DNA of 64,000 nt. It comes from Tistrella mobilis. GTDB taxonomy: Bacteria > Pseudomonadota > Alphaproteobacteria > Tistrellales > Tistrellaceae. The notes below the pieces were generated by a model. It was not told where the DNA came from, made no database searches, and worked only from the letters and a program-made list of their open reading frames with translations. Below are positions 6,775-59,601 of the stretch, piece after piece. Made by a program: the position numbers and the translations under genes. Location of the stretch: NCBI RefSeq assembly GCF_041468085.1, contig NZ_CP121017.1, forward strand, positions 2,087,501 through 2,151,500. Reading direction: 5' to 3'. Position 1 is the first letter of the stretch; each line of letters starts with the position of its first letter.

Positions 6775-8571
6775 TCAGAAGCGCCAGGCGACCCGCGCAT
6801 GGGCGCTCCGGTCCCGGTCGGTGGTCGCACCCGCCGCGAGACGCAGTGTTGCGTTCGGGCCGAGCCCGATATCGACGCCCGCGCGAAGCTCTCCCGTCCC
6901 CTCGGGGCGGGCGAGCGGTCTGGTGATGTCTTTGGCAGAATTGTCGACCAGCCGGCCCCGGATATCCCCGTCGAAGCCGGAGAGCCTGTCTTCCCAGGCG
7001 AGGCTCGCCCAGGGGGTAAGCCAGCCGGTGGCGACATAGCGCAGGTGGAGCCCGGCGCCGCCGAGGAGGCCCGAGGTCGAGACCTCGTCGAAGGCCATTT
7101 CAAGCCCTGTGCGGCCGTGTTCGGTGAAGGCGCCGATGCGGCTGTCGGACCAGCGCAGCCAGACTGCCGGCTGAAGGGTGAGCGCACCTGCGGTGACGAC
7201 ATAGCCGGCCGAGATTTCGGCGAAGCGGCTGTCGATGTCGGTCTTGTGATCGGCCCGCATCAGCGCCACCGGCATGGTGCGGAACCCCTCCGCCCGCGCG
7301 GTCAGCGTGCCGAGGCTTGCGCCCAGGCGAAACCGCCCGAGACGGCGCTCGCCGGAGGCGACCACCGACCAGCCGCCGACATCCGTGGATCCGGGGCTGT
7401 CGGCAAGCTTGCCGTCATGGCGGGCGACATCAAGGCGCACGGTCCAGCCAAGACCGTCGGACCAGCCGAGGCCGAGCGCCGCAAGGCCGGCATCGTCCCG
7501 GCCCGCACCGCCATCGGCCGAAACGCTGAAGCCCGGGGCGGGGGCTGCGTCGGCCCAGGCGGCAAAGCGCTCGTCACGGGCCCGTGCTGCGATCTGGTCA
7601 CCGGTGGTGCGGGCAAAGCGCGTCATCGACTGGGGAAGGGCATGGGCCGTACCGGCCAGCTGGCTCAGAAGTGCCCGATAATAGTTGGCCTGCAGGCGCT
7701 GTCCCGCCTCGGTCAGATGCAGGCCGTCGAAGAACAGATAGGTGTTCTGAACCGCGCGATCGGTCGAACAGAGGCTGCCCGATGCCTCATCGTAACAAGC
7801 CTCGGTGACGTTGGTGAAGCCGAGGGCGGCCGCGTGGGCCAGCACATGGTCGAACAGGCGGCTGACCCTGACCATGACGATGTCGGGCGCCCCCGGCCGG
7901 GCGCTCTGGTCGCGAAGGGCGGCCAGCTGATCGGCGCGGTGGCGGTCCAGCACGCCGTGCATGATCAGGTTGAACCGCTCCCGATCCTCGGGCGGGACCA
8001 GCCCGGCGAAGGCCGGGGCCAGATAAAAATCGGGCACGTCCTCGACCAGGATGCGGCGGGCTCCCAGATCGGCGAGCCGGTCGAGACCTGCCCCGATATT
8101 GCCGGTCACTTCGGCCGAGGTCTCCGTGAGGTCGCGGTTGCCCAGATCGCGGATGAAATCATTGGTGCCGATGGCGACCACGAACAGATCGCCGGGCCGG
8201 CCCCGCAGGCCGCGCCCGGCAAAGGCATCGATCTGGGCGCCAAAGCCGGTGCCGGTGACCGGACCTGCAATGTTGTCATCGCCCGAGGTGGCACCTGAAA
8301 AGGCGAAGTTCACCTCTCGCGACCCGGCCGCCGCACCGGCCGAGGGCGCGATCCCCGGCACAAGATGCTCGATCCAGACCGGGCCGTTCGATTCGCGGCT
8401 GAAGCCGTCGGGGGCGTAATAGGGCGCGCCGGTGCGGTCGAAGCCCGGCAACACATAGAGATTGCCCTGTTCGACCGAGCTGTCGCCGAAGACGAAGCTG
8501 CCGGCCAGGGCGGGCCCGGCCAGAAACAGGGACAGAAGGCCGGCTGCGGCCGGCAGGGATGAGGCAGGCAT
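6775..8571 (-). CDS. GDSL (SGNH) esterase autotransporter
   Basis: A 598-residue type V secreted lipase/esterase. A signal peptide ends near residue 23 (ALA). The SGNH hydrolase passenger follows: FGDSS gives nucleophile Ser31, GTND gives Asn136, and DGLH gives Asp281 and His284 of the triad. From about residue 340 the chain is an outer-membrane beta-barrel with alternating aromatic strands, ending in WRF, the C-terminal aromatic expected for BAM insertion. Homologous in design to EstA/ApeE enzymes that stay attached to the cell surface. I chose the ATG at 8571 because the signal peptide then starts at residue 1; the in-frame extension to 8637 is not signal-like. Confidence 0.92.
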   Translation of the reverse strand: MPASSLPAAAGLLSLFLAGPALAGSFVFGDSSVEQGNLYVLPGFDRTGAPYYAPDGFSRESNGPVWIEHLVPGIAPSAGAAAGSREVNFAFSGATSGDDNIAGPVTGTGFGAQIDAFAGRGLRGRPGDLFVVAIGTNDFIRDLGNRDLTETSAEVTGNIGAGLDRLADLGARRILVEDVPDFYLAPAFAGLVPPEDRERFNLIMHGVLDRHRADQLAALRDQSARPGAPDIVMVRVSRLFDHVLAHAAALGFTNVTEACYDEASGSLCSTDRAVQNTYLFFDGLHLTEAGQRLQANYYRALLSQLAGTAHALPQSMTRFARTTGDQIAARARDERFAAWADAAPAPGFSVSADGGAGRDDAGLAALGLGWSDGLGWTVRLDVARHDGKLADSPGSTDVGGWSVVASGERRLGRFRLGASLGTLTARAEGFRTMPVALMRADHKTDIDSRFAEISAGYVVTAGALTLQPAVWLRWSDSRIGAFTEHGRTGLEMAFDEVSTSGLLGGAGLHLRYVATGWLTPWASLAWEDRLSGFDGDIRGRLVDNSAKDITRPLARPEGTGELRAGVDIGLGPNATLRLAAGATTDRDRSAHARVAWRF

Positions 8572-8699
8572 GGCAGGTTCCCGAGTGGTGCCACCCGATG
8601 CGGTGGCTGCCCCTCTTCCTGCCCGAACCGCCTGCAAACCGTCGTCCGGGCGGGCAGAACCGGACGTCCTGTCTGTCAGACCAGACGTCGCACGCGGCC

Positions 8700-11549
8700 T
8701 CAGCCGCCCATCAGCGCCGCAAACCGACCCTTGCGCTTCACCAGCTCGTCATGCGTGCCGGCCTCGACGATCCGTCCGCCCTCCAGCACCAGGATCAGCC
8801 CGGCCTGGCGGATGGTCGACAGGCGATGGGCGATGACGATGCGGGTGGCGGGCAGGGCCTGGATGGTCTGCATCACCCGTGCCTGAGTGGGGCCGTCGAG
8901 GGCGCTGGTGGGTTCGTCCAGCACCAGCACCGGCGGCCGCTGGACCAGGGCGCGGGCCAGGGCCAGGCGCTGGAGCTGCCCGCCCGAGAGCATGCGGGTC
9001 GCATCGGGCAGCATGGTGTGCAGCCCCATCGGCATGGTGGCGACATCCTGGTCCAGGGCGGCGGCGGCCAGGGCGGCCCGGACCTGGTGGGGGCTGGCAT
9101 CGCTGATGCCGCGGACGATGTCGAGGATCGATCCCGGAGGCAGGGCCTCGTCCTGAAGTACGGTGCCGATCTGGCGGCGGACGGCGGTGGGGTGCAGGGT
9201 GCGGAGGTCGTGGCCATCGATATAGACGGCCCCGGTTCCGGGCGCCTCCAGGCCCAGCAGCAGGCGCAGCAGGGTGGATTTGCCGCTGCCCGAAGGGCCG
9301 ACGATCGCGACCATCTGCCCCGGCGCCACCCGGAACGAGATGTCGGAGAGCACCGGCGGGCCGCTTTCATAAGCAAAGCCGACGGCGGCAAAGCTGATCT
9401 CGCCCGAAAGCGGGCCCGGATCGGTGAGGCCGGTGGTCGCCGGCGGTGCCCGCTCCAGCAGCGGTCGGGCGAACGCCCAGCCGGGCAGCATCATCCAGGC
9501 GCCGAGCAGCGCCCGCAGGAATTGCGACAGCCCGGCCGTCATCAGGCCGAAAGCGGTGGCGATGGCGGCGATGGCGGCGATGGACAGGGCCGGCGCGCCC
9601 TCGGCCGTGTCCGCCAGCCCCTGCATCACCGCGAACAGTGCGGCGGTCGCCAGAATCGGGAAGGCCGCCTGCCAGCTTTCGAACAGATTGCCGATGCGTC
9701 GGGCCTTGACCGAGCGGTGACGCATGGCGGCGAAACGGTCGGCCCAGCGCAGCACGGCGCGGTCTTCCGCCGCAGCCGTGCGCAGCTTGACCATGGCATT
9801 GATCATCTGCAGCAGCTGGGCATCCGCAGTGCCCATCAGCTCTTCGCCGTTGCGATAGGCGCGGGCCTGGGCATGGCCGGTGGCGACGCCGATCAGGAGA
9901 TGCAGCCCCGCCAGCCCGGCGGCGAGCCCGGCCAGAAGCGGGCTGTGCCAGGCGATGACGGCCAGCGACGAGACCACCATGCCGAGCGTGCCGCCGCTCA
10001 GATACAGCATCTGCCGGAAGCCCGAGATGCTGCCGAGCCCGGCGCCCAGCTGGGCCGAGAGGAAGGCGGCCGGGCGCGATCTCAGAAAGGGCAGGGGCAG
10101 GGCGATGATCCGTGCCCAGGCGCGATCGAACAGCCCGGCATCGCCGCGCATGGCGACCCGTTCCCGCGCCGTCTCTGCGGCAAGCTGGGCGAGGTAGCCG
10201 GCGCCTGCGACCAGCAGCACCAGCAGCCCGATCTGAACCAGGGCCCCGCGCAGGGCCGCCGGCACCAGCAGGCCGAAGACCAGCCCGGTGACGATGGGCA
10301 GGATCTGGCCGATCAGGCTGCCGATCAGGGTTGCGGCCAGGAAGACCAGACTGTCGGGCCCCGCCCCGGCCAGGCCGGCGGTCATCATCCCGGCGAGCCC
10401 GGCCTTGCGGGCCAGGGGCAGGAAGATCTGGCGGGCGGTGGGCGCGATCCCGGCGGCCTCTGCGGCCGTCACCCTCCGGCGGGCGCCGTGGCGATCGATC
10501 ATGTCGTAATGCCCGCCCCGCCAGATCAGCCCGACCGGGCGGTCCTGATGACGGGCGAGCAGCAGGCCGGATTCCTGCCGCCACCAGCCGTCGGGCAGGT
10601 CCACCTGGCGGAGCAGCAGGCCCGAGGCGCGGGCGATCTCGTCCAGTTGCGGCAGCCGGTCCATCTGCGCGCGGCGGGCCGCGGCCGGGCGGTGGATCGG
10701 CACGCCCAGCTCACGTCCCAGCAGGCGCAGCACGTCGAGCAGGCCGTCGCCGCCATCGGCTTCGGCAAGCAGCGGCACCCGGTTGCCGAGCAGGCCTGCA
10801 AACCGTGCCAGGGTCTGGCGGTGATCCTGGGCTGTGGCATGATCGCGGGCGCGGATCCGGTTCAGTTCGTCGGCTTCGGCCAGCCCGCGCAGGATCGGCA
10901 GCACTTCCGTCGCCGCGGCCCCCCAGGCGGCCAGCGCCTCCGGCCAGTCGGGCCGGGCCAGTCCTTCGGCGAAAGGCAGCAGGTCGATCTGCGCGGCATC
11001 GTCCAGCGTCAGCCAGCTGCCCTCGGGCAGCGGCACAAGCCCCGAGACCGGCTCCATGCCGCAGAACCGGGCGCCGGCCCCCACCGGCAGCTGCACCCAG
11101 GTGATCCCGACGGTGGCGCCGATCACCGATCCGGCGCCGAGCCGGATGGCGGCGGCCCGCTGGCCGTGGGCTGCCAGATCCGGCTGGGGCCTGGGGTCGA
11201 TCAGCCGTCCCAATCCGCCGCCGATGGTGCCCAGCCAGCCGGCGATGCCGGCGGCGATCTCGGGCAGGCCGGCGCTGTTGCGCCAGAGCACATCCGGGAG
11301 CTGCCAGATCAGGGTAACCGCATCACCGGCCGCGATCAGATGCTCGGTGCCGAGCAGCGCCGGCGCGGCGCCGAACAGAAGGCCGCCGTTCTCGATCCGG
11401 CCGATGGCCATGCGGGCGGTGGGCCGTTCCGCGGAGATGGCGAAGAGATCGACCGGCCCGCCCGTCACCAGATAGCAGCTGCCTGGCTGATCCAGCGCCA
11501 GGGGGCGTTCGGTCATCAGGCGCGGCTGCGGCGTGGCGGGCTGATCCAT
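8700..11549 (-). CDS. NHLM-type ABC exporter, second subunit (cassette 1)
   Basis: A 949-residue inner-membrane exporter: long soluble N-terminal region (about 1-390), six-helix transmembrane domain (about 400-660) and C-terminal nucleotide-binding domain with Walker A GPSGSGKS, signature LSGGQ, Walker B VLVLDEPTSAL and switch His in IVIAHRLS. It matches the 'NHLM bacteriocin system ABC transporter, ATP-binding protein' family. The stretch just before the membrane domain looks like a degenerate C39-like domain with no catalytic Cys, as in other members. The ATG at 11549 lies 5 bases past the stop of the C39 exporter, with GGGTGAG inside that gene's end as ribosome binding site. Last gene of the cassette. 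Probably pairs with the C39 subunit. Confidence 0.9.
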   Translation of the reverse strand: MDQPATPQPRLMTERPLALDQPGSCYLVTGGPVDLFAISAERPTARMAIGRIENGGLLFGAAPALLGTEHLIAAGDAVTLIWQLPDVLWRNSAGLPEIAAGIAGWLGTIGGGLGRLIDPRPQPDLAAHGQRAAAIRLGAGSVIGATVGITWVQLPVGAGARFCGMEPVSGLVPLPEGSWLTLDDAAQIDLLPFAEGLARPDWPEALAAWGAAATEVLPILRGLAEADELNRIRARDHATAQDHRQTLARFAGLLGNRVPLLAEADGGDGLLDVLRLLGRELGVPIHRPAAARRAQMDRLPQLDEIARASGLLLRQVDLPDGWWRQESGLLLARHQDRPVGLIWRGGHYDMIDRHGARRRVTAAEAAGIAPTARQIFLPLARKAGLAGMMTAGLAGAGPDSLVFLAATLIGSLIGQILPIVTGLVFGLLVPAALRGALVQIGLLVLLVAGAGYLAQLAAETARERVAMRGDAGLFDRAWARIIALPLPFLRSRPAAFLSAQLGAGLGSISGFRQMLYLSGGTLGMVVSSLAVIAWHSPLLAGLAAGLAGLHLLIGVATGHAQARAYRNGEELMGTADAQLLQMINAMVKLRTAAAEDRAVLRWADRFAAMRHRSVKARRIGNLFESWQAAFPILATAALFAVMQGLADTAEGAPALSIAAIAAIATAFGLMTAGLSQFLRALLGAWMMLPGWAFARPLLERAPPATTGLTDPGPLSGEISFAAVGFAYESGPPVLSDISFRVAPGQMVAIVGPSGSGKSTLLRLLLGLEAPGTGAVYIDGHDLRTLHPTAVRRQIGTVLQDEALPPGSILDIVRGISDASPHQVRAALAAAALDQDVATMPMGLHTMLPDATRMLSGGQLQRLALARALVQRPPVLVLDEPTSALDGPTQARVMQTIQALPATRIVIAHRLSTIRQAGLILVLEGGRIVEAGTHDELVKRKGRFAALMGG

Positions 11550-11554
11550 CGGGC

Positions 11555-13696
11555 TCACCCTTCGCGCATCAGCTGCACGAAGGGGCCCGGGCGGGAGAGC
11601 AGGGCCTCGGGCGAGCCCTCCTGCACGATGCTGCCCTTGTCCATCACGATCACGCGGTCGCAATCACGAACGGCGCTGAAGCGGTGGGCGACGATGATCA
11701 TGGTGGCACCCAGCCGGCGCAGCCCCGCATGCAACCCGGCCTCGGTTTCGGTGTCGAGGAAGGCGGTCGCTTCGTCGAGGATCAGGATGCGTGGCTCGCG
11801 GACCAGGGCGCGGGCGATTTCGAGCCGGGCGCGCTGACCGCCGGAGAGATTGGTGCCGCCCTCGGTCACATGGCCGCCATAGCCGCCGGGGCGGCGGAGG
11901 ATGACATCGTGGATCAGCGCCATGCGGGCGGCTTCGACGATCCGTTCATCGGGCAGGGATGGATCCCAGAGGGCGATATTGTCGCGGATGCTGCCTTCAA
12001 GGATCACGGCGCGCTGATCGACATAGGCCAGCGACTGGCGCAGCCGTGCCCGCGGGATCGCGGTCATCGGCGTGCCGTCGATCAGGATGTCGCCTGCAGC
12101 CGGCGGGTGGATGCCGGCGATCAGCGCCGCAAGGGTCGACTTGCCGGATCCGGAGGCGCCGACGATGCCCAGACGCTCGCCCGGGCTGAGCGAGAGGTTC
12201 AGATCCCGGATCAGCGGCACTGCGGCCGGGCCGTAGCCGGCGCTCACCCCCCGAAGGTCGATGGCGCCGATCAGGCGGCCGGGCGCCGGATCGGCGGTCC
12301 CGGTGAATTCGGCCGCCGTCGGATGGCGGAGCGTGTCGTCCAGCACCTGGATACAGGCCTGACCGTCCTGGATCCTGGCGCCGAGCTGGACCAGCTGTGC
12401 CATCGGTGCCAGGAAGCCCGCCATCAGCGCCTGAAAGGCGATCAGCATGCCCAGGGTCAGCTCGCCACGGATGACCATATCGGCCCCGATCACCAGCACC
12501 AGCCCGCCCAGGGCGAGGCCGGTGAGGCCGGGCAGGGCGGTCAGCCGCATGCGTCGGCGGGCCAGCCCCTGGCGGAGGTTCAGCACCCGCGCATACATGG
12601 CCGACAGCCGTTCTCGGAACAGATCTTCCAGCCCCGCCGCCTTGTAGGCTTCGATCATGCCCAGCCCCTGTTTCGCGAAACCGGCCTGCATGGTGGTGGC
12701 GATCACCATCCGCCGGTTGTCGTCGGCAAGCGCCCGCGAGGATCGGGTGAGCAAAGCGAGATTGACGGCCGCCCCGGCCGCGACCAGCAGGCCGAGCCAG
12801 GGGGCGTAGAACATCATGGCGGCCAGATAGGCGGTCGCCGTCAGCAGGTTCAGAAGCACCGCACCGACATCGCCGGCGATCAGCTGCGCCAGGCGGTCGT
12901 TGAGCATCACCCGGCTGGCCACCTCGCCCGGATGGCGCTGCGCGAAATAGAGCAGCGGCAGGCGCACGACATGGCCGACGAAACCGGCGGCGCCACGGAG
13001 TGCCAGCCGGGTTTCGAGGCGGAGCAGCGCCTCGCGCTGCAGGAAAGTGAGGGCGGCCGTCAGCACCGCCGCCAGCCCCATGCCCAGAATCAGCGGCCAG
13101 AGCCAGGTTGCGAACCGGTTGACCAGGATCTGGTCGATGAAGATCTGGGCGAAGACCGGCACCAGCAGCCCCGGCACGACCAGGGCAAACGAGATCATCA
13201 GGATGAAGCCGAAGGCATCACCGGCCCCGCGCAGTCGCCGGGTGAGGCCGCGGGCGAGCGACGGGCGGCTGCCGCGGCGCTGGAAGCCGGAACCCGGCCG
13301 CATGAACAGCACGATGCCCGTGAACATGCGATCGAATTCGGCGGCGCTCACCTCCCGCGGGCCGGTCGCGGGATCGTTCAGCCGGACCCGGTCACCGCGA
13401 AAACCTTCAACCACCAGGAAATGGTTCATGCCCCAATGGATGATGGCTGGCAGATCCCGGCCGCGGAGGTCTGCCGGCTCCAGCCGTTCGGCCTGCGCTT
13501 CCAGCCCCATCGCGCGGGCGGCGCGCAGGATCGCGAGGGCGGAACTGCCGTCGCGGGAGACGTTGCAGGCCTGGCGCAGCTCTTCCAGCGTTGCCCAGCA
13601 GCCGTGATATCCCAGAATGATGCCGAGCGCCGCCGCCCCGCATTCGGCGGCTTCCATCTGCAACAGGGTGGGGGTGCGCTGACGCCGGCCGGGCAT
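11555..13696 (-). CDS. C39 peptidase-containing ABC exporter (cassette 1)
   Basis: A 713-residue peptidase-ABC exporter that cuts a leader after Gly-Gly and translocates the cargo. The N-terminal C39 protease has the oxyanion Gln13 and nucleophile Cys19 (QMEAAECG), His92 (NHFLVVEG) and Asp108 (LNDPA), so it looks catalytically complete. A six-helix membrane domain (about 160-450) follows, then an ATPase domain with GASGSGKS, LSGGQ and ILILDEATAFLD. It belongs to the 'NHLM system peptidase/ATP-binding' family. Its ATG at 13696 directly abuts the TGA of the HlyD gene, which indicates translational coupling. The double-glycine protein at 15036-15614 is the obvious substrate. Confidence 0.93.
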   Translation of the reverse strand: MPGRRQRTPTLLQMEAAECGAAALGIILGYHGCWATLEELRQACNVSRDGSSALAILRAARAMGLEAQAERLEPADLRGRDLPAIIHWGMNHFLVVEGFRGDRVRLNDPATGPREVSAAEFDRMFTGIVLFMRPGSGFQRRGSRPSLARGLTRRLRGAGDAFGFILMISFALVVPGLLVPVFAQIFIDQILVNRFATWLWPLILGMGLAAVLTAALTFLQREALLRLETRLALRGAAGFVGHVVRLPLLYFAQRHPGEVASRVMLNDRLAQLIAGDVGAVLLNLLTATAYLAAMMFYAPWLGLLVAAGAAVNLALLTRSSRALADDNRRMVIATTMQAGFAKQGLGMIEAYKAAGLEDLFRERLSAMYARVLNLRQGLARRRMRLTALPGLTGLALGGLVLVIGADMVIRGELTLGMLIAFQALMAGFLAPMAQLVQLGARIQDGQACIQVLDDTLRHPTAAEFTGTADPAPGRLIGAIDLRGVSAGYGPAAVPLIRDLNLSLSPGERLGIVGASGSGKSTLAALIAGIHPPAAGDILIDGTPMTAIPRARLRQSLAYVDQRAVILEGSIRDNIALWDPSLPDERIVEAARMALIHDVILRRPGGYGGHVTEGGTNLSGGQRARLEIARALVREPRILILDEATAFLDTETEAGLHAGLRRLGATMIIVAHRFSAVRDCDRVIVMDKGSIVQEGSPEALLSRPGPFVQLMREG

Positions 13697-14992
13697 TCAG
13701 CGGCCACCGGTCTCGCGCGGCGCGTCCGGGCCGGCATATTGCAGGGCGGGGATGGCGAGGGCGAGCAGGGGGCCGGAGCGGATGGTGAAACGCAGCTCCG
13801 CCAGCGTGCCGGGCTCGATCCGCGGCGGGGTGGCGCGCGGAGAGGACCAGAGCGGATGACCGGGCCGCGCCGGGTCAGGATCGAGGGCGACCGTCACCTC
13901 GAAGGGCGCACCCATGCCCTCCTGGAACGTCTGCACCAGCCGGTCGTTCTGCAGGGTCTTGAGCATGCCGGCACTGCTGGCCGGCACGTCGCTCACATGC
14001 ACGACATGGCCGCGCAGGAACCCGTGCTCTTCGCGCCGCGTGGTGGTGGGCGAGATTTCGACCGGCATGCCCGGGCGGATCTTCTTGCCGTCGGCGGCGG
14101 TGACATAGGCGGTGACATGGGGCAGCACGCCTCTGCCGTCGCCCGGCTCTGCCCGCCGCTCCAGGGTGACCATCGCGGTGCCGGGCTGGACCATCTGGCC
14201 GATATTGACCTTGGCCTCCACCACCCGCCCGGCGAAGGGGGAACGTATGGTGCTGTTGCGCGCCAGCTGCCGGTCCAGGGCCGCCAGCTCCCGCTCGGCT
14301 TCGGCCAGACGGCGTTCGGCTTCCAGCCGCGCCTTTTCGCGTTCGGTCGCCTGAAGGGCCGCCTCCGCCTGCATGGCGACGCGCTCGTCGCGGGCATCGG
14401 CGATGCTGCTTTCGACCGCCAGCACCTCCTGATCCACCTGCAACAGCCGGTCGCGGGTGACATTGCCGGTGCTGAGCAGGCGGCGAAGATTGGCCTGCTG
14501 GTCGCGAAGTGCGGCGCCCCGCAGCTCCAGAGCCTGGACACGCTCGGCCAGAGAGGCCTCCCGGGCCGTGCGCAGGCGGGCGCGATTGGCGTCGTCGGCC
14601 GCCTGGAAACGGACAAGCTCGTCGCGGAATCTGAGCGCATCGGCGCGTTCGGCGCGGGCGATATCGCGTTTCAGCTCCAGATCCGGTTGCGCAATACGGG
14701 CGACCACCGCGCCTTCGGCCACCTCCGTGCCCGGGGCGGCATCAAGGGCAAGCACCTGCCCTGCCGCATCGGCCACCACATCGATCATGCCGCCGGGTGC
14801 GAGCAGGATGCCTTGCCCGCTCACCGAGATCGGCACCCGGAAGAGCGCGCTCCAGACCAGGGCCCCCAGGATCAGAGCAACCAAAAACAGCCCGCCCGCC
14901 CAGAGGCGCGGGCGCATGACGCCAAGCGCGTCACGGTACTGGTTCGACGTCGCGGACGACTCGAGCGCAGCCGGACGGAAAAGCGTGCTCAC
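13697..14992 (-). CDS. HlyD-type periplasmic adaptor (cassette 1)
   Basis: A 431-residue membrane-fusion protein linking the inner-membrane exporter to an outer-membrane channel. It has one transmembrane helix near residues 31-49, a split lipoyl/biotinyl-like domain, a long coiled-coil hairpin (about 110-245, rich in Ala/Arg/Glu heptads) and the adaptor motif IRSPFAGRV after the coiled coil. It matches the 'NHLM bacteriocin system secretion protein' family. The stop abuts the ATG of the C39 exporter. The upstream neighbour, 43 bases away on the same strand, is the double-glycine cargo. No TolC is encoded in this cassette; the one at 59598-60992 is a candidate partner. Confidence 0.9.
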   Translation of the reverse strand: MSTLFRPAALESSATSNQYRDALGVMRPRLWAGGLFLVALILGALVWSALFRVPISVSGQGILLAPGGMIDVVADAAGQVLALDAAPGTEVAEGAVVARIAQPDLELKRDIARAERADALRFRDELVRFQAADDANRARLRTAREASLAERVQALELRGAALRDQQANLRRLLSTGNVTRDRLLQVDQEVLAVESSIADARDERVAMQAEAALQATEREKARLEAERRLAEAERELAALDRQLARNSTIRSPFAGRVVEAKVNIGQMVQPGTAMVTLERRAEPGDGRGVLPHVTAYVTAADGKKIRPGMPVEISPTTTRREEHGFLRGHVVHVSDVPASSAGMLKTLQNDRLVQTFQEGMGAPFEVTVALDPDPARPGHPLWSSPRATPPRIEPGTLAELRFTIRSGPLLALAIPALQYAGPDAPRETGGR

Positions 14993-15035
14993 CGGTTATG
15001 GTCCCGCAGCCGGACGATCGGTCGGTCGGCCGGCG

Positions 15036-15614
15036 TCAACGCATATTGCCGATGATGTTGTTGGCGGTGTTCTGCATCCGGTCGATGAACTGCTGCATCA
15101 GCGCCATGGCCTCTGCACGTTTCTCGTTCATCGCCTGCAGGGCGGCCATCTCCATGGTCTGAACGGCAGTCACGTCGCCGATGCGGTCCTGCAGCAGGCC
15201 GGTGATGGCATCCATGTCCGAGGCATCGATGCTGCCGTCGTCGATCCGTTCCTGATCCAGGCCGAGATCGGCGGCAAGGGCGCCGAGCGTGGTTTCCTGG
15301 CCCAGGTGGTGAACCAGAGTATCGGTCGACAGGGGGCCCTGCCGGTCGAGCGTTTCATCGAGACCGCTCAGCTCCTGCAGGGTGCCGTTCATCTGCGTGA
15401 GCTGGGTGTTACGTTGCTCGATCGCATCCATCTGCTGCTGGACACTGCTGTCCAGCTGATCCTGTCTCTGCTGCTGCACCAGGGCGAGGATCTGGTCGAG
15501 ATCCATATTGGTGGCATCCATGAAGCCGATGCCCGGGGTACCCGACGAACCGCCGGTGACTTGCGCCAGATCCTCGTCCGTGACGATCGTCGATGGCTTG
15601 ATATCGTTCACCAT
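15036..15614 (-). CDS. double-glycine leader protein, probable exported cargo
   Basis: A 192-residue protein whose first 22 residues form a canonical double-glycine leader: DEDLAQVTGG with Leu16 at -7, Val19 at -4 and Gly21-Gly22 at -2/-1. Cleavage would release about 170 residues beginning SSGTPGIGF. The mature part has no cysteine, is rich in Gln, Asp, Met and Leu, and is predicted helical with an amphipathic C-terminal helix ending IIGNMR. It has no transmembrane segment. AGGAGG about 7 bases before the ATG at 15614 decides the start. First gene of cassette 1, followed by HlyD, C39-ABC and ABC genes. I do not recognise the mature domain. It is far larger than a typical microcin and does not carry a nitrile-hydratase-like leader. 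Whether it is a toxin, matrix or filament protein is open. Confidence 0.8.
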   Translation of the reverse strand: MVNDIKPSTIVTDEDLAQVTGGSSGTPGIGFMDATNMDLDQILALVQQQRQDQLDSSVQQQMDAIEQRNTQLTQMNGTLQELSGLDETLDRQGPLSTDTLVHHLGQETTLGALAADLGLDQERIDDGSIDASDMDAITGLLQDRIGDVTAVQTMEMAALQAMNEKRAEAMALMQQFIDRMQNTANNIIGNMR

Positions 15615-15650
15615 TCCCGCCTCCTGGTCAGCACCCGATGTCGTGTGCGC

Positions 15651-52306: not shown

Positions 52307-52432
52307 CCCGGCAGCCATCGGCGCTTGCAGCCCTGCCGGCGGCACGGGAGGTTCGGCGGTCGATGGACAGCATCCGCCCGGGCGGCTAGCTTTGGGTCGG
52401 GATGTGGGTGCGGGGGTGATGTCGGTCCGACG

Positions 52433-53689
52433 ATGAATGCCAGCGGTATCTTCCGGAAGGCGGCCCTCGACCGCCTGTCTTCCCCCGAACAGCTTGATCA
52501 GACACTGACCGTCGCCAGCCCGCGGGGCTGGGCGGCGGCGCTTGTCGTGGCGGCGGCCATGACCGGGGTCGTGGTCTGGTCGGTGGTGGGCGAAATCCCC
52601 GTGCGCAAGGCCGGGCAGGGCTTGCTGATCGCCGAGGGCGGCCGGGTTCTGGATGCCCCGGCGCTGGGGGCCGGCACGCTGTCCGAGCTTCTGGTCGGGC
52701 TGGGGGACGAGGTCGCCGTCGGCCAGCCGGTGGCACGGATCTCCAATCCCGACCTGACCCTGCAGCTTGTCAATCTGCGGGCAGTGGTGGCCGAACGCCG
52801 CGAAGCCCGTGCTCGCCTGGAGCAGGATCTGGCCGAGGAGGCCCGCCTGCGGGAAGCGAGCCTGGCCGCGCAGCGCGAGGCGCTGGATACCCGACTGAAT
52901 GCCGCGCGCAGCCGGCTGTCCTATCAGCAGGGGCGCCTCTCCGATCTGGAGGCGCTGCTGGCGCAGAAGGTGGTGACGCGCGATGCACTCGCCCGGGCAC
53001 GGGACGAGGTCGCGCAGGCGCGCCAGGATCTGGCCGAGGTGGAAAGCGGCACAGCCGATCTCCGCTCGCGCAAGATCGAGGCCGAGATCGCAGCCGAGCG
53101 CCGCCGCCGCGAGGCCGACGAGGCGATCGCCGAGGCGGAGCGCCGTGTTGCCGAGCTGGAGGCCCGCGCTGCACGCGGTGCCGTGGTGACGGCACCCGAG
53201 ACGGGACGTGTGACCGAGATCAAGCAGCTGCCTGGCGCCCAGGTGACTGCGGGCCAGGCGGTGCTGGCGCTTCAGACCGGCGGCGAGACGCTGGAAGTGG
53301 TGATGTTCGTGCCACCGGCCGACGGCAAGGCGGTTCGCCCGGGTATGCCGGTGCAGATCAGCCCCTCCACCGCCCCGCGGGAGAGCTTCGGCACGCTGAC
53401 CGGCGAGCTGGTGTCGGTGTCGGATTTCCCGGTATCCTCCGACGGCATCCGGGCGATCGTCGACAATCCCGGGCTGGTGGAGAGTTTTGCGCAGGCGGGC
53501 CCGCCCTTTCTGGCCCGGGTGCGGATCGATCGTGATCCGGCCAGCGCCTCCGGCTATCGCTGGACCTCGTCGAAGGGCAGCGACCTCGCGCTTTCGGCCG
53601 GCACGCTGGCCTCGGTCGAGGTCGAGACCGCGACCGAGCGGCCGATCGATATGGTGATCCCGCTGCTCAAGGAGTGGACCGGGCTGTGA
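52433..53689 (+). CDS. HlyD-type periplasmic adaptor (cassette 2)
   Basis: A 418-residue membrane-fusion protein of the NHLM secretion type. One transmembrane helix lies at about 33-50, followed by a split lipoyl-like domain, a long coiled-coil hairpin (about 105-245, rich in Arg/Ala/Glu) and the beta-barrel half with VPPADGKAVRPGMPVQISPS. It is homologous to the cassette 1 adaptor (same VTA/VPPADGK and RPGMPV blocks) yet clearly divergent. Its TGA overlaps the GTG start of the C39 exporter. First gene of cassette 2, 126 bp after scpB; no obvious promoter could be fixed in that gap. Confidence 0.9.
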   Translation: MNASGIFRKAALDRLSSPEQLDQTLTVASPRGWAAALVVAAAMTGVVVWSVVGEIPVRKAGQGLLIAEGGRVLDAPALGAGTLSELLVGLGDEVAVGQPVARISNPDLTLQLVNLRAVVAERREARARLEQDLAEEARLREASLAAQREALDTRLNAARSRLSYQQGRLSDLEALLAQKVVTRDALARARDEVAQARQDLAEVESGTADLRSRKIEAEIAAERRRREADEAIAEAERRVAELEARAARGAVVTAPETGRVTEIKQLPGAQVTAGQAVLALQTGGETLEVVMFVPPADGKAVRPGMPVQISPSTAPRESFGTLTGELVSVSDFPVSSDGIRAIVDNPGLVESFAQAGPPFLARVRIDRDPASASGYRWTSSKGSDLALSAGTLASVEVETATERPIDMVIPLLKEWTGL

Positions 53690-55950
53690 CCGCGCCTGCC
53701 GCGGCGCCGGCCGCCCCTGAGAGCCTGATCAAGCCCAACGCCCCCAAAGGGGGGCGCCGCTTCCGTGTGCCGACCATCCTGCAGATGGAGGCGACCGAAT
53801 GCGGCGCTGCGTCGCTGGCGATGATCATGGCCCATCACGGGCTCTGGCTGCCGCTGGAGGTGCTGCGCCGGGAATGCGGCGTGTCGCGTGACGGCTCCAA
53901 GGCCGCCAACCTGCTCAGGGCCGCACGGCGCTACGGCTTCGAGGCCCGCGGCTACCGGCGTGAGCCGGACAGCGTCGTCAATCTGCCCTTCCCGATGATC
54001 GTGTTCTGGAACTTCAACCATTTCGTGGTGCTTGAAGGGGTGGATGCGACGCGTGACCGGGTCTGGATCAACGATCCGGCCATGGGTCCGCGGGCGATGA
54101 CGGTGGAGGAATTCGACCAGGGCTTCACCGGCGTATGCCTGGCCTTCCGGCCGACGCCGGAGTTCAAGCGCGGCGGCCGCCCGCCGGGGCTGTTCAAGGC
54201 CTTTGCCGAGCGGCTGCGCGGCAGCGGCCCGGCGCTGGCCATGGTGCTGATGCTGACCCTGATGCTGGTGCTGCCGGGGCTGGCCCTGCCGGTTTTCTCC
54301 AAACTCTTCGTCGACGGTGTGCTGATCGGCGACGAGCAGGATTGGCTGAAACCGCTGCTGATCGGTATCGGGCTGACCGCGATCATCCGGGCCGGGCTCG
54401 ATTGGGCGCAGATGCGCTATCTGGCCCGGCTGGAACTGAAGCTGGCGATTTCAGGCTCGGCCAAGCTGCTCTGGCATGTTTTCCGATTGCCGGTGGAGTT
54501 CTTCCTTCAGCGCTATCACGGCGACGTGGCGATGCGGGTGGAATCCGGCGACCGGATCGCGCAGCTGCTCTCGGGCCAGTTCGCGACCAATGCGGTCGGG
54601 CTGGTGACCATGGTCTTCTATGCCGTGGTCATGATCGGCTATTCGCCGCTGCTGGGGGCCGTGGGGATCGGCCTCGCCCTGGTCAATGCCGTGGTGCTGA
54701 AACTGGCGCAGCGGGCGCGGGAAGATGGCGGCCGGCGTCTTGCCCGCGAACAGGGGGCGCTGGCGGCGACCTCGATCAGCGGCATTCAGTTGCTGGAGAC
54801 CCTGAAGGCGAGCGGTGGCGAGAGCGATTTCTTCGCCCGCTGGGCGGGCGTCCATGCCCGCTATCTGAACGCCCTGCAGCAGGTCGGCCGGATCACCTCG
54901 TGGGTCAATGCGGTGCCGGCCTTCATGGCGGCGCTGACCTCGGCGGTGATCCTGGGCATCGGCGGGTTGGAGGTGATGTCGGGCGCCATCACGGTCGGCG
55001 GTCTGGTGGCGGTGCAGAGCCTGCTCGCCAGCTTTTCGGCGCCCATTGCCGGGCTGATGCAGTTCGGCGGCGAGTTGCATGGGATCAAGGGCCAGGTGGC
55101 GCGGATCGACGACGTGCTGCGCTATGACGTCGATCCCACACTCGACACCACCGAAAAGGTGATGCGGATCGATGCGCCCTCGGGCCGCAGGCTGCCGCAG
55201 CGCCTGCGCGGCGAGGTGCGGATCGAGAACCTGACCTTCGGCTACAACAAGGCCGAGGCGCCGCTGATCGATGATTTTTCACTCACCATCCGCCCCGGAC
55301 AGCGCGTGGCCCTGGTCGGGGGGTCGGGCAGCGGCAAATCCACCGTGGCGCGCGTGGTCTGCGGGCTCTACCGGCCGTGGAGCGGCCGGGTGCTGTTCGA
55401 CGGTATCCCCGCCGAAGACCTGCCCCATGCCTATTTTGCCGGTTCCATCGCCTCGGTCGACCAGGAGATCTTTCTGTTCGAGGGCACGGTGCGCGAGAAC
55501 GTGACCATGTGGGACGACACCATCAGCGAGGCGGCCGTGACCCGGGCGCTGCGCGATGCCGCCCTGCTGGACCTGATCGAAGCGCGGCCCGGGCGATATG
55601 ACTCACCCGTTGCCGAAAACGGCGCCAATTTCAGCGGCGGCCAGCGCCAGCGGCTGGAGATCGCCCGCGCGCTGGTCGGCGACCCGGCAGTGCTGATCCT
55701 GGACGAGGCGACCAGCGCGCTCGACACCCAGATCGAGAAGATCATCGACGAGCGCCTGCGCCATCGCGGCTGCACCTGCCTGATCGTGGCGCACCGGCTG
55801 TCGACGATCCGCGATTGCGACGAAATCATCGTGCTGGAACGGGGGCGCATCGCCCAGCGGGGCCGGCACGAAGACATGATCCGCGAGGACGGCCCCTATG
55901 CCAGGCTGATCCGCTCTGAACAGACCGATGCGGCAAGGGGGCGCGGATGA
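53686..55950 (+). CDS. C39 peptidase-containing ABC exporter (cassette 2)
   Basis: A 754-residue leader-cleaving exporter. The N-terminal protease has Gln33 and Cys39 (QMEATECGAAS), His112 (FNHFVVLEG) and Asp130 (INDPA), a complete C39 triad. Six transmembrane helices (about 180-480) and an ATPase domain (GGSGSGKS, FSGGQRQR, VLILDEATSALD, IVAHRLS) follow. It matches the NHLM peptidase/ATP-binding family. The start is taken as GTG 53686, inside GTGA with the HlyD stop and with AAGGAG upstream; GTG 53674 is an alternative. Its candidate substrates are the NHLP-type peptides at 60989-61669. Confidence 0.93.
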   Translation: MTAPAAAPAAPESLIKPNAPKGGRRFRVPTILQMEATECGAASLAMIMAHHGLWLPLEVLRRECGVSRDGSKAANLLRAARRYGFEARGYRREPDSVVNLPFPMIVFWNFNHFVVLEGVDATRDRVWINDPAMGPRAMTVEEFDQGFTGVCLAFRPTPEFKRGGRPPGLFKAFAERLRGSGPALAMVLMLTLMLVLPGLALPVFSKLFVDGVLIGDEQDWLKPLLIGIGLTAIIRAGLDWAQMRYLARLELKLAISGSAKLLWHVFRLPVEFFLQRYHGDVAMRVESGDRIAQLLSGQFATNAVGLVTMVFYAVVMIGYSPLLGAVGIGLALVNAVVLKLAQRAREDGGRRLAREQGALAATSISGIQLLETLKASGGESDFFARWAGVHARYLNALQQVGRITSWVNAVPAFMAALTSAVILGIGGLEVMSGAITVGGLVAVQSLLASFSAPIAGLMQFGGELHGIKGQVARIDDVLRYDVDPTLDTTEKVMRIDAPSGRRLPQRLRGEVRIENLTFGYNKAEAPLIDDFSLTIRPGQRVALVGGSGSGKSTVARVVCGLYRPWSGRVLFDGIPAEDLPHAYFAGSIASVDQEIFLFEGTVRENVTMWDDTISEAAVTRALRDAALLDLIEARPGRYDSPVAENGANFSGGQRQRLEIARALVGDPAVLILDEATSALDTQIEKIIDERLRHRGCTCLIVAHRLSTIRDCDEIIVLERGRIAQRGRHEDMIREDGPYARLIRSEQTDAARGRG

Positions 55951-58900
55951 GCGCGGCGCCGTCCGACAGCGCAGGTCTGCCGCCGATCGATCCGGAGCTG
56001 GTCGAGGCCAAGGCCGAACTGCTGGCCAAGATCGACGGGGTGCGCCGTCAGGTCGGCTATCACAATCCCTTCCTGCTCGACCGGCCCGATCTCATCTGGC
56101 TGGTGCTGGAAGGCGCGGTCGATCTTTATGCCGTGCCGGTGCGTGACGGCGAGGTGATCGGCGTCGGCATTCATGTCGGCCGCGTCCCGGCCGGCGAGCT
56201 GGTGTTCTCGCCCGGCCTGGTCCCGTCGGCGGGGGCGCTGGTCGCGGCGGAAGAGGGGGCCGATCTGGCGCTCCGTGCCGTTGCGGTGATGGGCACCGAA
56301 CTGTTCGAGGCGAAGCGCGCCGATGTCGCCGAGGGCGATTTCGACCTGATCGTGGTCGACTGGCTGGATCGCTGGATCGGCCATATGGCCGGGCTCGCGG
56401 TGCCGGGGGCGGGTGCCCGGGCGGCTGATCTGCTTGAAGCCGAGCCGGGCCAGCAGGTGCCGGCCGGCAGGGTTCTGGGGCCGCAGCCCGAAGATGTGAT
56501 CTGGGTTCAGTGCAACAGCGGCCGCGTACGGCTGCTGGGCCTGCCGGAGCTGGAATACGGCCGCAACGATCCGCCGGTGCCGGTCGCCCGCCATCTCTGG
56601 GTGGAAACGGCCGAAGAGGCGATCCTTTCGCCGGCCTATACGCCAACGGTGCTGTTCCGTGGCACGGCCTGGGAGGCGCTGGACGCCTTCCACCACATGG
56701 TGCTGACGGCAGCCGCCCGGCGGCTCGCCGAGGCGGCCGAGCAGGATGGCGGCCGGCTGGAAACCCGCCGGGATGCCAGCCGGCGCCGGTTCGAGACGTC
56801 GCTCGGCCGCATCGGGCGCCTGCTCGACCGGCATGGCCCGTCCGAGGCGGCGGGCCTGACCGAGGGCGCCGGTCCGTTGATCGCCGCGGTCGACCGTGTC
56901 GCCCGCGAAACCGGCATCGACACGGCGTCCCGCGGCGCGAAACCGCGTGGCGGACGGGTGCTCGACATCGCCCAGAGCCTGAGGCTGCGCTGTCGGCGGG
57001 TGACGCTGACCGGCGACTGGTGGCGCCGCCCGGGCGCGCCCCTGGTCGCCTTCATCGGCGAGACCGGGGCGGGCGAGCGCGGCCGGCCCGTGGTCCTGCT
57101 ACCCGCTGCCGATGGCCGCTGGCGGTTGGTCGATCCCGAGACCGACGGGCCGGCCGGGCCGGGCCGGCCTCTCACCCGTGCCGCGGTCGACAGCCTGAGC
57201 GGCGAGGGCTGGATGCTCTACCGGCCGTTTCCGGCCAAGCCGATATCGGTGGGGGAGGTCTGGCGCTTCGGTCTTCACGGCCTGAAGGGCGACGTGCGCA
57301 CCATCATGGCCTGCGGGCTGCTGGCCGCGCTGACCGGCCTGCTGACCCCCATCGCCAGCGGGGCCCTGTTTTCCAACGTCATCCCGCGGGCTGATCTGCA
57401 GACCCATCTGTGGGTGGTGCTGGCGCTGCTGGCGGGCGCGGTCGGTATCCTGACCTTCGCCGTGGTCCGTGGCATCGCTTTGTTGCGGCTCCAGGCGACA
57501 ATGGACTGTTCGGTACAATCGGCGGTCTGGGACCGTCTGCTGGCCCTGCCGGCGCCGTTTTTCCGTCGGTTCACCGGCGGTGATCTGGCCGACCGGGCCA
57601 ACAGCGTCTCTGCGATCCGCGAACTGCTGACCGGATCGGCACTTCAGGTGGGGCTGGATGCGCTGTTTTCTCTGGTCAGCCTGTCCCTGCTGTTCTGGTA
57701 CAGCGCGAAGCTGGCCCTGGTGGCGCTGGGCGTGCTGCTGCTGCAGGTGCTGGTGACCGGCATTCTGCTCAGGATCCAGCTGCCCGACCAGCGGGCGCTG
57801 CTCAGCCTGGGCGGCCGGATCGAGGGGCTGGTCTTCCAGCTGCTGACGGGGCTGTCGAAGCTTCGGGTCTCTGCCGCCGAACCGCGGGCCTTCGCGCGCT
57901 GGGCCGAGGAGTTCTCGGTGCGCAAGCGGCTGACCTATCGGGTGCGGCTGAATGCGGCGGCGCAGGGGGCGCTGGCGCAGCTGTTCCCGGTGCTGGGCAC
58001 GCTGGCGGTCTACCTCTCGGTCGCAACGCTGCTCACCGGACCCGACGGGCGCCCGGAATTCGGCATCGGCCCGTTCATGGCCTTCACCGCCGCCTTCGGC
58101 CAGCTGACCATGGCGATGACCTCTCTGGTTGCAACCGCCGGCACCGTGCTCGCCATCGTCCCGCTTTACGAGCGGGTGACGCCGATCCTGACCGAGATGC
58201 CCGAGATCACCCCCGACCGGGCCCATCCGGGCGAGATCACCGGCCGGATCGAGTTTTCCCACGTCACCTTCGCTTACGCCCCCGATGCGCCGCCGGTGCT
58301 GGATGATCTGTCGCTGACCATCGAGTCCGGTGGCTATGTCGCCTTCGTCGGCGAAAGCGGCTCGGGCAAGTCCACCCTGCTGCGCCTGCTGCTCGGCTTC
58401 GAACTGCCGCAATCGGGCGGTGTCTATTTCGACGGCATGGATCAGGCCGGCCTGGACCTGACGGCGCTGCGCCGGCAGATCGGCGTGGTGCTCCAGAACG
58501 GCCGTCTGATGTCGGGCAGCATCTTCGACAACATCGTGGGTTCGTGGCCGCTCACCCAGGAAGATGCCTGGACGGCGGCGCGGCTCGCCGGCCTCGACGA
58601 GGATATCCGGGCCCTGCCGATGGGCATGCATACGGTGCTGTCGGAAGGCGGCGGCACGCTTTCGGGCGGGCAGCGGCAGCGGCTGATGATCGCCCGGGCC
58701 CTGGTCCACCGGCCGCGCATCCTGGTGCTGGACGAGGCGACCAGCGCGCTCGACAACCGCACCCAGGCCATCGTCAATGACAGCATTTCGAAGCTCAACA
58801 TGACCCGGATCGTGGTCGCGCACCGGCTTTCGACCATCCAGGACGCCCATCAGATCTATGTCATGAAGGCCGGCCGGCTGGTGGAGCAGGGCGACTATCG

Positions 58901-58958
58901 CAGTCTGATGGCGCTGGATGGTGAATTCGCTGCCCTGGCCCGGCGTCAGCTGCTCTGA
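55947..58958 (+). CDS. NHLM-type ABC exporter, second subunit (cassette 2)
   Basis: A 1003-residue exporter: about 440 soluble N-terminal residues, six transmembrane helices (about 445-720) and an ATPase domain with GESGSGKS, LSGGQRQR, ILVLDEATSALD and IVVAHRLS. The soluble region has a cupin/cyclic-nucleotide-binding-like opening and then a degenerate C39-like portion without catalytic Cys, as in the NHLM ATP-binding family. It overlaps the C39 gene (ATGA). It probably forms a heterodimeric or two-stage exporter with the C39 subunit. The convergent secreted-protein gene ends 7 bases beyond its stop. Confidence 0.9.
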   Translation: MSAAPSDSAGLPPIDPELVEAKAELLAKIDGVRRQVGYHNPFLLDRPDLIWLVLEGAVDLYAVPVRDGEVIGVGIHVGRVPAGELVFSPGLVPSAGALVAAEEGADLALRAVAVMGTELFEAKRADVAEGDFDLIVVDWLDRWIGHMAGLAVPGAGARAADLLEAEPGQQVPAGRVLGPQPEDVIWVQCNSGRVRLLGLPELEYGRNDPPVPVARHLWVETAEEAILSPAYTPTVLFRGTAWEALDAFHHMVLTAAARRLAEAAEQDGGRLETRRDASRRRFETSLGRIGRLLDRHGPSEAAGLTEGAGPLIAAVDRVARETGIDTASRGAKPRGGRVLDIAQSLRLRCRRVTLTGDWWRRPGAPLVAFIGETGAGERGRPVVLLPAADGRWRLVDPETDGPAGPGRPLTRAAVDSLSGEGWMLYRPFPAKPISVGEVWRFGLHGLKGDVRTIMACGLLAALTGLLTPIASGALFSNVIPRADLQTHLWVVLALLAGAVGILTFAVVRGIALLRLQATMDCSVQSAVWDRLLALPAPFFRRFTGGDLADRANSVSAIRELLTGSALQVGLDALFSLVSLSLLFWYSAKLALVALGVLLLQVLVTGILLRIQLPDQRALLSLGGRIEGLVFQLLTGLSKLRVSAAEPRAFARWAEEFSVRKRLTYRVRLNAAAQGALAQLFPVLGTLAVYLSVATLLTGPDGRPEFGIGPFMAFTAAFGQLTMAMTSLVATAGTVLAIVPLYERVTPILTEMPEITPDRAHPGEITGRIEFSHVTFAYAPDAPPVLDDLSLTIESGGYVAFVGESGSGKSTLLRLLLGFELPQSGGVYFDGMDQAGLDLTALRRQIGVVLQNGRLMSGSIFDNIVGSWPLTQEDAWTAARLAGLDEDIRALPMGMHTVLSEGGGTLSGGQRQRLMIARALVHRPRILVLDEATSALDNRTQAIVNDSISKLNMTRIVVAHRLSTIQDAHQIYVMKAGRLVEQGDYRSLMALDGEFAALARRQLL

Positions 58959-58965
58959 CGGGTCG

Positions 58966-59601
58966 TCAGTCCGCCAGCGGCAGACCGGCATCGGCGGCGG
59001 CGGCGCTCTCGATCATGCCGCGCAGGCTCCCGGTGTTGGCGAAGTCCCACCGCCCGTCATAGACAACATCATCAATCCGCCAGCCGTCGTTGCCGCGCAG
59101 GATCGACAGGCGGTCGGTCCAGCTGGTCATCAGCGTGCCAGCTTCATGGGCATAGCGCAGCTCGACCGATGCGGTGTTGCGTGCCAGGGTCACCGCGCCG
59201 ACACGGCAGCTGGTCGCGCCTTCGAACAAGCTGGAGAACAGATCGCCATCGGCGAAGGGCGGTTTGTCGCCTGGCGCCTGCCGGATGGCGGCGTCGTGAA
59301 GATGCCGGGCAGCGGTGAGGGCGCCATCCAGACCAAGGGTGATCAACGGTTCCAGGGCATGACGGCCGGCAGGGGCGGGCAGGCCACCGCTGCGGAGGTC
59401 GGGATAGACGGCACAGAAGGCTTCGGCGAGTGCCGCGACCTCCACGCCGTCTTCGGCTGCGGCAGTCCGGGCAGCGCTGGCCTGGGCGTCGAGCGTCGAG
59501 CCATAGACTTCCTGGGCGGGTGCGACACGTGGCAGAACGCAGCAGACCAGCATCGCCACAAGCCATGCCGACGGGCCTTTTCCGCTCGGGTGAGATTTCA
59601 C
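58966..59601 (-). CDS. small secreted protein (DUF3828-like), function unknown
   Basis: A 211-residue protein with an N-terminal signal peptide (hydrophobic core around WLVAMLVCCVL, probable cleavage near VAPAQ). The mature part has two domains' worth of mixed helix and strand. The C-terminal portion with WTDRLSILRGNDGWRIDDVVYDG is the NTF2-like pattern seen in DUF3828-type periplasmic proteins. The start is GTG 59601, overlapping the TolC stop (GTGA). It is the last gene of the precursor-TolC operon. Immunity, chaperone or channel-accessory roles are possible; none is shown. Three cysteines are in the precursor outside the signal region or nearby. Confidence 0.75.
   Translation of the reverse strand: MKSHPSGKGPSAWLVAMLVCCVLPRVAPAQEVYGSTLDAQASAARTAAAEDGVEVAALAEAFCAVYPDLRSGGLPAPAGRHALEPLITLGLDGALTAARHLHDAAIRQAPGDKPPFADGDLFSSLFEGATSCRVGAVTLARNTASVELRYAHEAGTLMTSWTDRLSILRGNDGWRIDDVVYDGRWDFANTGSLRGMIESAAAADAGLPLAD

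Follow-up and report, generated by a model that had tools for sequence, protein, structure and literature searches.

The filament and tip proteins of type III secretion systems (T3SS), represented by Bsp22, EspA and SseB (SctA), are encoded in translocon operons together with SycD, SctE and SctB and have a long helix at each terminus and a middle segment between the two. In an AlphaFold model of Bsp22 these helices span residues 26-74 and 144-204, and the protein, which forms flexible filaments, is described as EspA-like although the two sequences share minimal similarity (PMC12607632). NHLM (NHLP) bacteriocin export cassettes encode, in order, an HlyD-type adaptor, an ABC protein with a C39 peptidase domain (ABC1) and a second ABC protein (ABC2). 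Two further systems export proteins to other ends: the small double-glycine (GG)-motif EbfG proteins of Synechococcus elongatus have a peptidase transporter, PteB, and a non-antibiotic role in biofilm (PMC4997328), and the Cdz proteins of the alphaproteobacterium Caulobacter crescentus are type I-exported glycine-zipper bacteriocins with an immunity protein that form surface aggregates and kill on contact (PMC5380434). Here we describe a four-gene cassette at positions 15614-8700, minus strand, of a 64,000-nucleotide stretch (the window) of a 6.3-Mb Tistrella genome (G000), whose first gene encodes an exporter cargo. Homology of this cargo to a protein family of T3SS translocon operons (SycD, SctE) is well supported by profile comparison, and its export by way of a GG leader and a C39 exporter is a well-supported prediction. 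We consider it likely that a gene of the SctA family has moved out of the injectisome and now encodes a GG-leader protein exported by a type I route.

The cargo resembles Bsp22, EspA and SseB in its predicted long terminal helices, middle segment and similar size, and its T3SS homologues share their gene slot; it differs from them in its N-terminal GG leader, in having an ABC exporter of its own and in the lack of any translocon or SycD gene from the cassette. With NHLM cassettes the locus shares an HlyD scoring over the curated cut-off and the order of C39-ABC1 and ABC2, whereas its leader is short and of class II type rather than NHLP or Nif11, ABC1 scores just under and ABC2 well under cut-off, and the cargo is a protein. 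The EbfG proteins differ in being small, and in contrast to the Cdz system the cassette has no immunity candidate. Secretion substrates are commonly viewed as bound to their own machines; here a family otherwise met in T3SS operons bears the export signal of another system, and does so in genomes without a match to two T3SS marker models. Among the titles and abstract openings of the open-licence literature matches listed, no report links a GG leader or an NHLM exporter to a filament or translocon protein of T3SS.

The original prediction, made from the DNA letters of the window, had placed a second NHLM-type cassette here in the order cargo, HlyD, C39-ABC, ABC, and all four genes are found as described:

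15620-15625, minus strand: AGGAGG ribosome-binding site, 5 nt 5' of the cargo ATG (by eye)
15036-15614, minus strand: cargo gene, 192 residues, encoding a double-glycine-leader protein homologous to T3SS translocon-operon (SctA-slot) proteins
15549-15614, minus strand: 22-residue leader MVNDIKPSTIVTDEDLAQVTGG, ending in VTGG and followed by SSG, with Val at -4, Leu at -7, Asp at -8 and Val at -12
15339-15500, minus strand: predicted N-terminal long helix, residues 39-92 (AlphaFold2, moderate confidence)
15042-15224, minus strand: long C-terminal helix as predicted by AlphaFold2 (residues 131-191), with good conservation among the T3SS homologues in alignment
13697-14992, minus strand: HlyD-type adaptor of the NHLM kind (TIGR03794, 249.7 bits, over the cut-off of 156.2)
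11555-13696, minus strand: C39 peptidase/permease/ATPase, ABC1 (TIGR03796, 849.5 bits, just under the cut-off of 853.3)
8700-11549, minus strand: second ABC permease/ATPase, ABC2 (TIGR03797, 559.3 bits, under the cut-off of 709.4)

The cargo and its T3SS relatives

The cargo had originally been left without a family, a view that profile searches now replace with homology to a T3SS translocon-operon protein. Searches with the single cargo sequence stay within the genus among 59 relatives, find only T. mobilis among genome contigs and nothing among plasmids, and return one chance match in the PDB (E 0.4). A profile of the three Tistrella cargo proteins (A1), searched against 385 genomes from this class, matched at E < 0.005 only the Tistrella genes, G160 (2.7e-24), G266 (7.5e-10) and G268 (9.7e-5); a further 11 of the 17 matched genomes gave only weak scores (E 0.005 to 0.07) and were left out of the count. 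In the reverse direction, a profile built from four T3SS proteins alone, with no cargo rows (A3), placed the cargo at the top in all four cassette genomes, with E-values of 8.4e-12, 8.3e-12, 6.8e-11 and 2.6e-21 in G000, G001, G002 and G160, respectively, and a next best match at 0.39. Furthermore, four T3SS sub-profiles each retrieved the cargo as the sole match among the 652 open reading frames (ORFs) of the window at E up to 10 (7.2e-6 for rhizobia only, 7.1e-10 for G266, 1.6e-5 for the G268 type and 5.3e-8 for the G176 type), and all 17 T3SS rows together gave 3.8e-17.

Long amphipathic, Gln-rich helices could have converged on such a pattern, in which case the cargo would be an unrelated secreted coiled-coil protein: two-helix coiled coils draw false matches, Foldseek returns generic hairpins only, and the cargo shares just 16-26% identity with T3SS members. 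Against convergence, which we judge very improbable, the two search directions agree on the top matches, which are well separated from the next best, profile-profile alignment in hhalign gives a probability of 98.4 and an E-value of 7.8e-15 over 169 columns, and the real cargo scores 55.0 bits where the best of 4000 shuffles reaches 17.5 and the reversed chain -2.6. The members also have in common a C-terminal pattern that mostly ends in NMR or NIR, and all nine class matches outside the cassette lie in one gene slot.

That slot probably corresponds to SctA, the position taken by the filament/tip proteins EspA, SseB and Bsp22. In Salmonella pathogenicity island 2 (SPI-2), sseB stands ahead of sscA-sseC-sseD, and the label follows from the homologue's position in G266 and G268, which is that of sseB.

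Cassette genomes and T3SS loci

An enlarged profile of 14 rows (A5; threshold E 0.001) matched 13 of the 385 class genomes, six of which had contributed rows to it and seven of which were new. The homologue lies in an exporter cassette in four of them (G000, G001, G002 and G160) and in T3SS loci in the other nine, where a SycD-like ORF adjoins it in every case and SctE follows in eight, the contig of the ninth (G173) ending there. The expectation that homologues would always be linked to NHLM exporters is thus overturned by the nine T3SS-borne homologues without a linked exporter; the separate claim of a dedicated cargo at this locus is not, and each of the four GG-leader genomes found has the linked exporter.

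G160, a member of another family, holds the same four-gene cassette, with the GG leader VVLSEEDLEKVTGG and HlyD, ABC1 and ABC2 scores of 248.2, 849.0 and 569.6 bits; the gene order of G160, sought in 61 genomes, was found in one, G160 itself. Just upstream of that cassette, near the contig end, a transposase-like ORF recognized by eye (L055, 163-1395, plus strand) is a possible sign of mobility.

In the T3SS loci of G266 and G268 the homologue occurs twice in tandem. The G266 row comprises a Btc22-like chaperone gene adjoining the homologue (NF051897, E 2e-8, below cut-off), the two homologues, a TPR chaperone, SseC (65.8 bits; cut-off 30.2) and SctB (47.7; cut-off 37), amid genes for SctU, T, S, R, N and V; that of G268 comprises the two homologues, a TPR ORF, one unplaced ORF, a second TPR ORF, SseC (58.2 bits), a weak SctB-like ORF and SctJ. 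The tandem copies form short/long pairs (L056, 12425-13572; L057, 8899-10312), to which the paired EspA homologues described in Chromobacterium violaceum may be likened (PMC1084347). In a phylum sample of 398 genomes, nine matched, four of which (G407, G488, G520 and G675; E 0.003 to 0.008) were left out of the count, and G670 is added, with genes for a TPR chaperone and SctE-like and SctB-like proteins, along with the aberrant G408. The profiles for SctE, SycD, SctB and similar proteins were built partly from G266, G268, G670 and rhizobia, for which they amount to self-tests; the locus calls for G266 and G268 come from Pfam and NCBIfam, and that for G670 only from those profiles and from inspection of its ORFs.

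By tblastn, the G266 protein matches 16 plasmids, all rhizobial. Nine of the 16 were inspected, and seven carry the row SycD, SctE, unnamed protein, homologue, six by annotation and one (H16) under vaguer names; on H7 a secretin gene lies beside the homologue with no SycD or SctE listed, and H11 is a transposase-rich remnant. All nine records annotate the homologue as hypothetical or uncharacterized. The T3SS of R. etli, one of these carriers, is of the Rhc-III type (PMC3973906).

None of the four cassette genomes matches the SctE model PF04888, which finds G266 and G268; the SctJ model exceeds its cut-off only in G266, G268 and G670, with a FliF-sized match under cut-off in Tistrella and none in G160. 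Between the window and G160, identity reaches 64% for ABC1, 56% for HlyD and 50% for ABC2, against 42, 37.5 and 32%, respectively, for the window's own canonical NHLM set. The ABC2 N-terminal region, used as a query, recurs in 15 of the 385 class genomes, at 40-100% identity in the four with an SctA-like cargo and at 26-36% in the other 11, none of which has an SctA-like match. In a 21-row tree the four GG members form one group with support of 88/83, or 94/93 once the six longest T3SS rows are removed. One capture of an SctA-family gene by the exporter cassette is the simplest reading; transfer may also have run in reverse, from the exporter form to T3SS, but the T3SS form of the family is far wider.

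Leader, exporter genes and the predicted export route

As originally predicted, the cargo is a Cys-free, Gln/Met/Asp-rich protein with a 22-residue GG leader and a 170-residue mature part: the 192-residue precursor has neither Cys nor Trp, and the mature chain contains 22 Gln, 19 Asp and 12 Met, with a computed pI of 4.05. It is found in all three genomes of the genus and is under purifying selection (nonsynonymous divergence dN 0.16, synonymous dS 0.58 versus T. mobilis; slowest at residues 93-192, dN 0.10), so the gene is not a chance ORF.

All four cassette members have GG at residues 21-22 and hydrophobic residues at -4, -7 and -12, namely Val, Leu and Val in the window and Val, Leu and Leu in G160. 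The substrate groove of the LahT150 C39 domain holds Val-4, Leu-7 and Leu-12 (PMC6363468), recognition positions that the predicted cargo leader fits. A fixed-position leader rule, applied with 60% of each frame scanned, selects all four cargo rows and one of 17 T3SS rows (R. etli); an earlier pattern, applied to the first 60 residues and with seven T3SS rows represented by stop-to-stop frames, likewise gave four of four and one of 17, in that case Gly-Ser of S. garamanticum (GS).

ABC1 has a Peptidase_C39 match of 112.3 bits and intact C39 Cys, His and Asp motifs, and aligns with TIGR03796 over its full length (1-710); ABC2 aligns with TIGR03797 over residues 268-947, preceded by about 267 additional N-terminal residues, and the nucleotide-binding motifs of both proteins are intact. 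With both models aligned almost entirely and scores 3.8 (ABC1) and 150 bits (ABC2) below the curated cut-offs, the cassette is of a divergent NHLM type. The genes were predicted to abut, which is borne out between HlyD and ABC1 (0 nt) and not between cargo and HlyD (43 nt) or between ABC1 and ABC2 (5 nt, taking the ATG at 11549 as the ABC2 start).

NHLM exporters usually serve modified peptides, and the cargo could accordingly be a precursor or carrier of a ribosomally synthesized and post-translationally modified peptide (RiPP), its protein part being a long core. Beyond the NHLM-type exporter genes themselves little points that way: the four cassette genes include no maturase, the cargo has no Cys and matches no nitrile-hydratase-like (NHLP) or Nif11-like leader model in NCBIfam up to E 1, and 169 conserved columns are common to it and the T3SS-locus proteins. 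We give this explanation the least credence of those considered. An unusually large GG bacteriocin, contact-dependent or diffusible, that reuses the T3SS helical protein as toxin or surface scaffold is unlikely as well, though less so. A GG leader with a C39 exporter is typical of bacteriocins, even if the bacteriocin_sig model TIGR01847 stays below its cut-off on the cargo (13.6 versus 15.7 bits; E 0.082), and Cdz offers an alphaproteobacterial precedent of contact killing through surface aggregates (PMC5380434). On the other side, none of the four cassette genes is a candidate for immunity and the flanking genes encode a GDSL autotransporter and a PEP-mutase-type enzyme, the cargo's homology lies with T3SS translocon-operon proteins, and a Cys-free protein of this length far exceeds a classic bacteriocin peptide.

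For an exported SctA-family protein, known transporter biochemistry would have the C39 domain of ABC1 cut the cargo after Gly22, and ABC1 and ABC2, together with HlyD and a TolC-type outer-membrane channel, would export the 170-residue chain unfolded, needing neither a needle nor a T3SS chaperone. The cassette, which is small and defined and serves a 170-residue protein, suggests a needle-free way to place a filament-type protein outside the cell and would extend the cargo range of NHLM-like exporters beyond peptides.

Possible assembly outside the cell and counter-evidence

The helical and possibly self-assembling surface protein of the original prediction finds agreement in an AlphaFold2 model (mean pLDDT 67, from a 3-row alignment) with two long helices (residues 39-92 and 131-191) that flank a small middle segment, self-assembly being suggested by the family. 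Filament assembly by EspA requires its C-terminal coiled coil, which on the authors' reading does not suffice for it (PMC1084347); given this requirement, the conserved C-terminal helix of the cargo fits a filament. By analogy with the family, the two helices would pair outside the cell and the protein would polymerise into a filament or surface coat, with a role in attachment or matrix rather than injection. We tentatively propose, at somewhat less than even chances, a new T3SS-derived appendage: a needle-free extracellular filament in which a tip-filament protein, once GG-cleaved and type I-exported, would self-assemble at the cell surface of Tistrella-type bacteria. The locus provides a natural setting in which to separate the export signal of such a protein from its assembly domain and to ask whether assembly is possible with no needle.

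Several observations weigh against this interpretation or parts of it. Used as single queries, only six of the 17 T3SS sequences recover the cargo below E 1e-3, so the relation is distant, and coiled-coil composition can raise scores, as with the one global shuffle at 17.5 bits. The family has no direct match to the named EspA, SseB or Bsp22 (no Pfam family; NCBIfam SseB at E 0.098 in one of 14 members), and the name SctA consequently derives from gene slot and architecture; in rhizobia, moreover, the homologue stands two genes past SctE and not beside SycD. PDB searches gave best E-values of 0.29 and 0.028, to unrelated coiled coils or enzymes. Confidence in the cargo model is moderate, and structure comparison by Foldseek or VIA-align retrieves generic helical hairpins only: Foldseek found no PDB match at E 0.001, and the 50 VIA-align matches listed, which include IpaB and a flagellar filament, all have Z below 10. 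The absence of T3SS from the cassette genomes is read from two markers only, SctE and SctJ, both trees are unrooted and flag long-branch joins involving the GG rows, and a weak C-terminal match of 117 residues in G408 lies near neither T3SS nor exporter genes.

Finally, the T3SS homologue of R. etli carries a leader-like stretch, QNLPSQNLYNIPGG, with hydrophobic -4, -7 and -12 residues, and the leader pattern alone is therefore not exclusive to cassette members. Because this stretch has prolines at -3 and -11, is absent from the other four rhizobial members tested and lies in a 16-kb T3SS locus with no annotated C39 exporter, we read it as a chance look-alike; it could instead be a trace of the leader's origin. 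The N-terminal GG stretch in question reads NLYNIPGG (L071, 7893-8420).

Two further candidates for relatives of the family were set aside. FliD_N of Pfam matches six of nine members, all under cut-off (best 0.0013), which we take as coiled-coil similarity; homology of EspA and flagellin has been proposed in print (PMC1084347). A PDB search with the A5 profile gave a best E of 0.028, and the best 60 of 285 sequences at E up to 10 are mostly viral fusion-helix coiled coils, that is, chance matches.

The G408 orphan (L069, about 8071-8427, plus strand) has only the C-terminal helix in common with the family; nine profiles scanned over 18 kb found, besides it, one TPR ORF about 5 kb away, and Pfam gave no match. 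In the G160 cargo (L055, 1887-2501) the middle segment contains an EF-hand-like loop, DTNDDGNLDAEE, whose Tistrella counterpart ERIDDGSIDASD looks degenerate by eye; EF-hand_6 matches one of nine family members at E 0.086.

Elsewhere in the window, the canonical NHLM HlyD-ABC1-ABC2 set lies at 52325-58958 on the plus strand; each of its three models scores over cut-off, a scan of a few neighbouring ORFs found no NHLP-type precursor, and a TolC-like OEP gene follows the set (59598-60992, minus strand). Directly downstream of the cassette is the GDSL lipase autotransporter gene (6775-8637, minus strand), which is kept in the genus, and upstream the PEP-mutase-type gene; the same neighbours occur in all three genus genomes. 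Compared with T. mobilis, the window shares 76% identity in the cargo and 89-92% in the exporter genes, and in T. mobilis KA081020-065 a metal P-type ATPase gene, named from its sequence, is inserted on the upstream side of the cassette.

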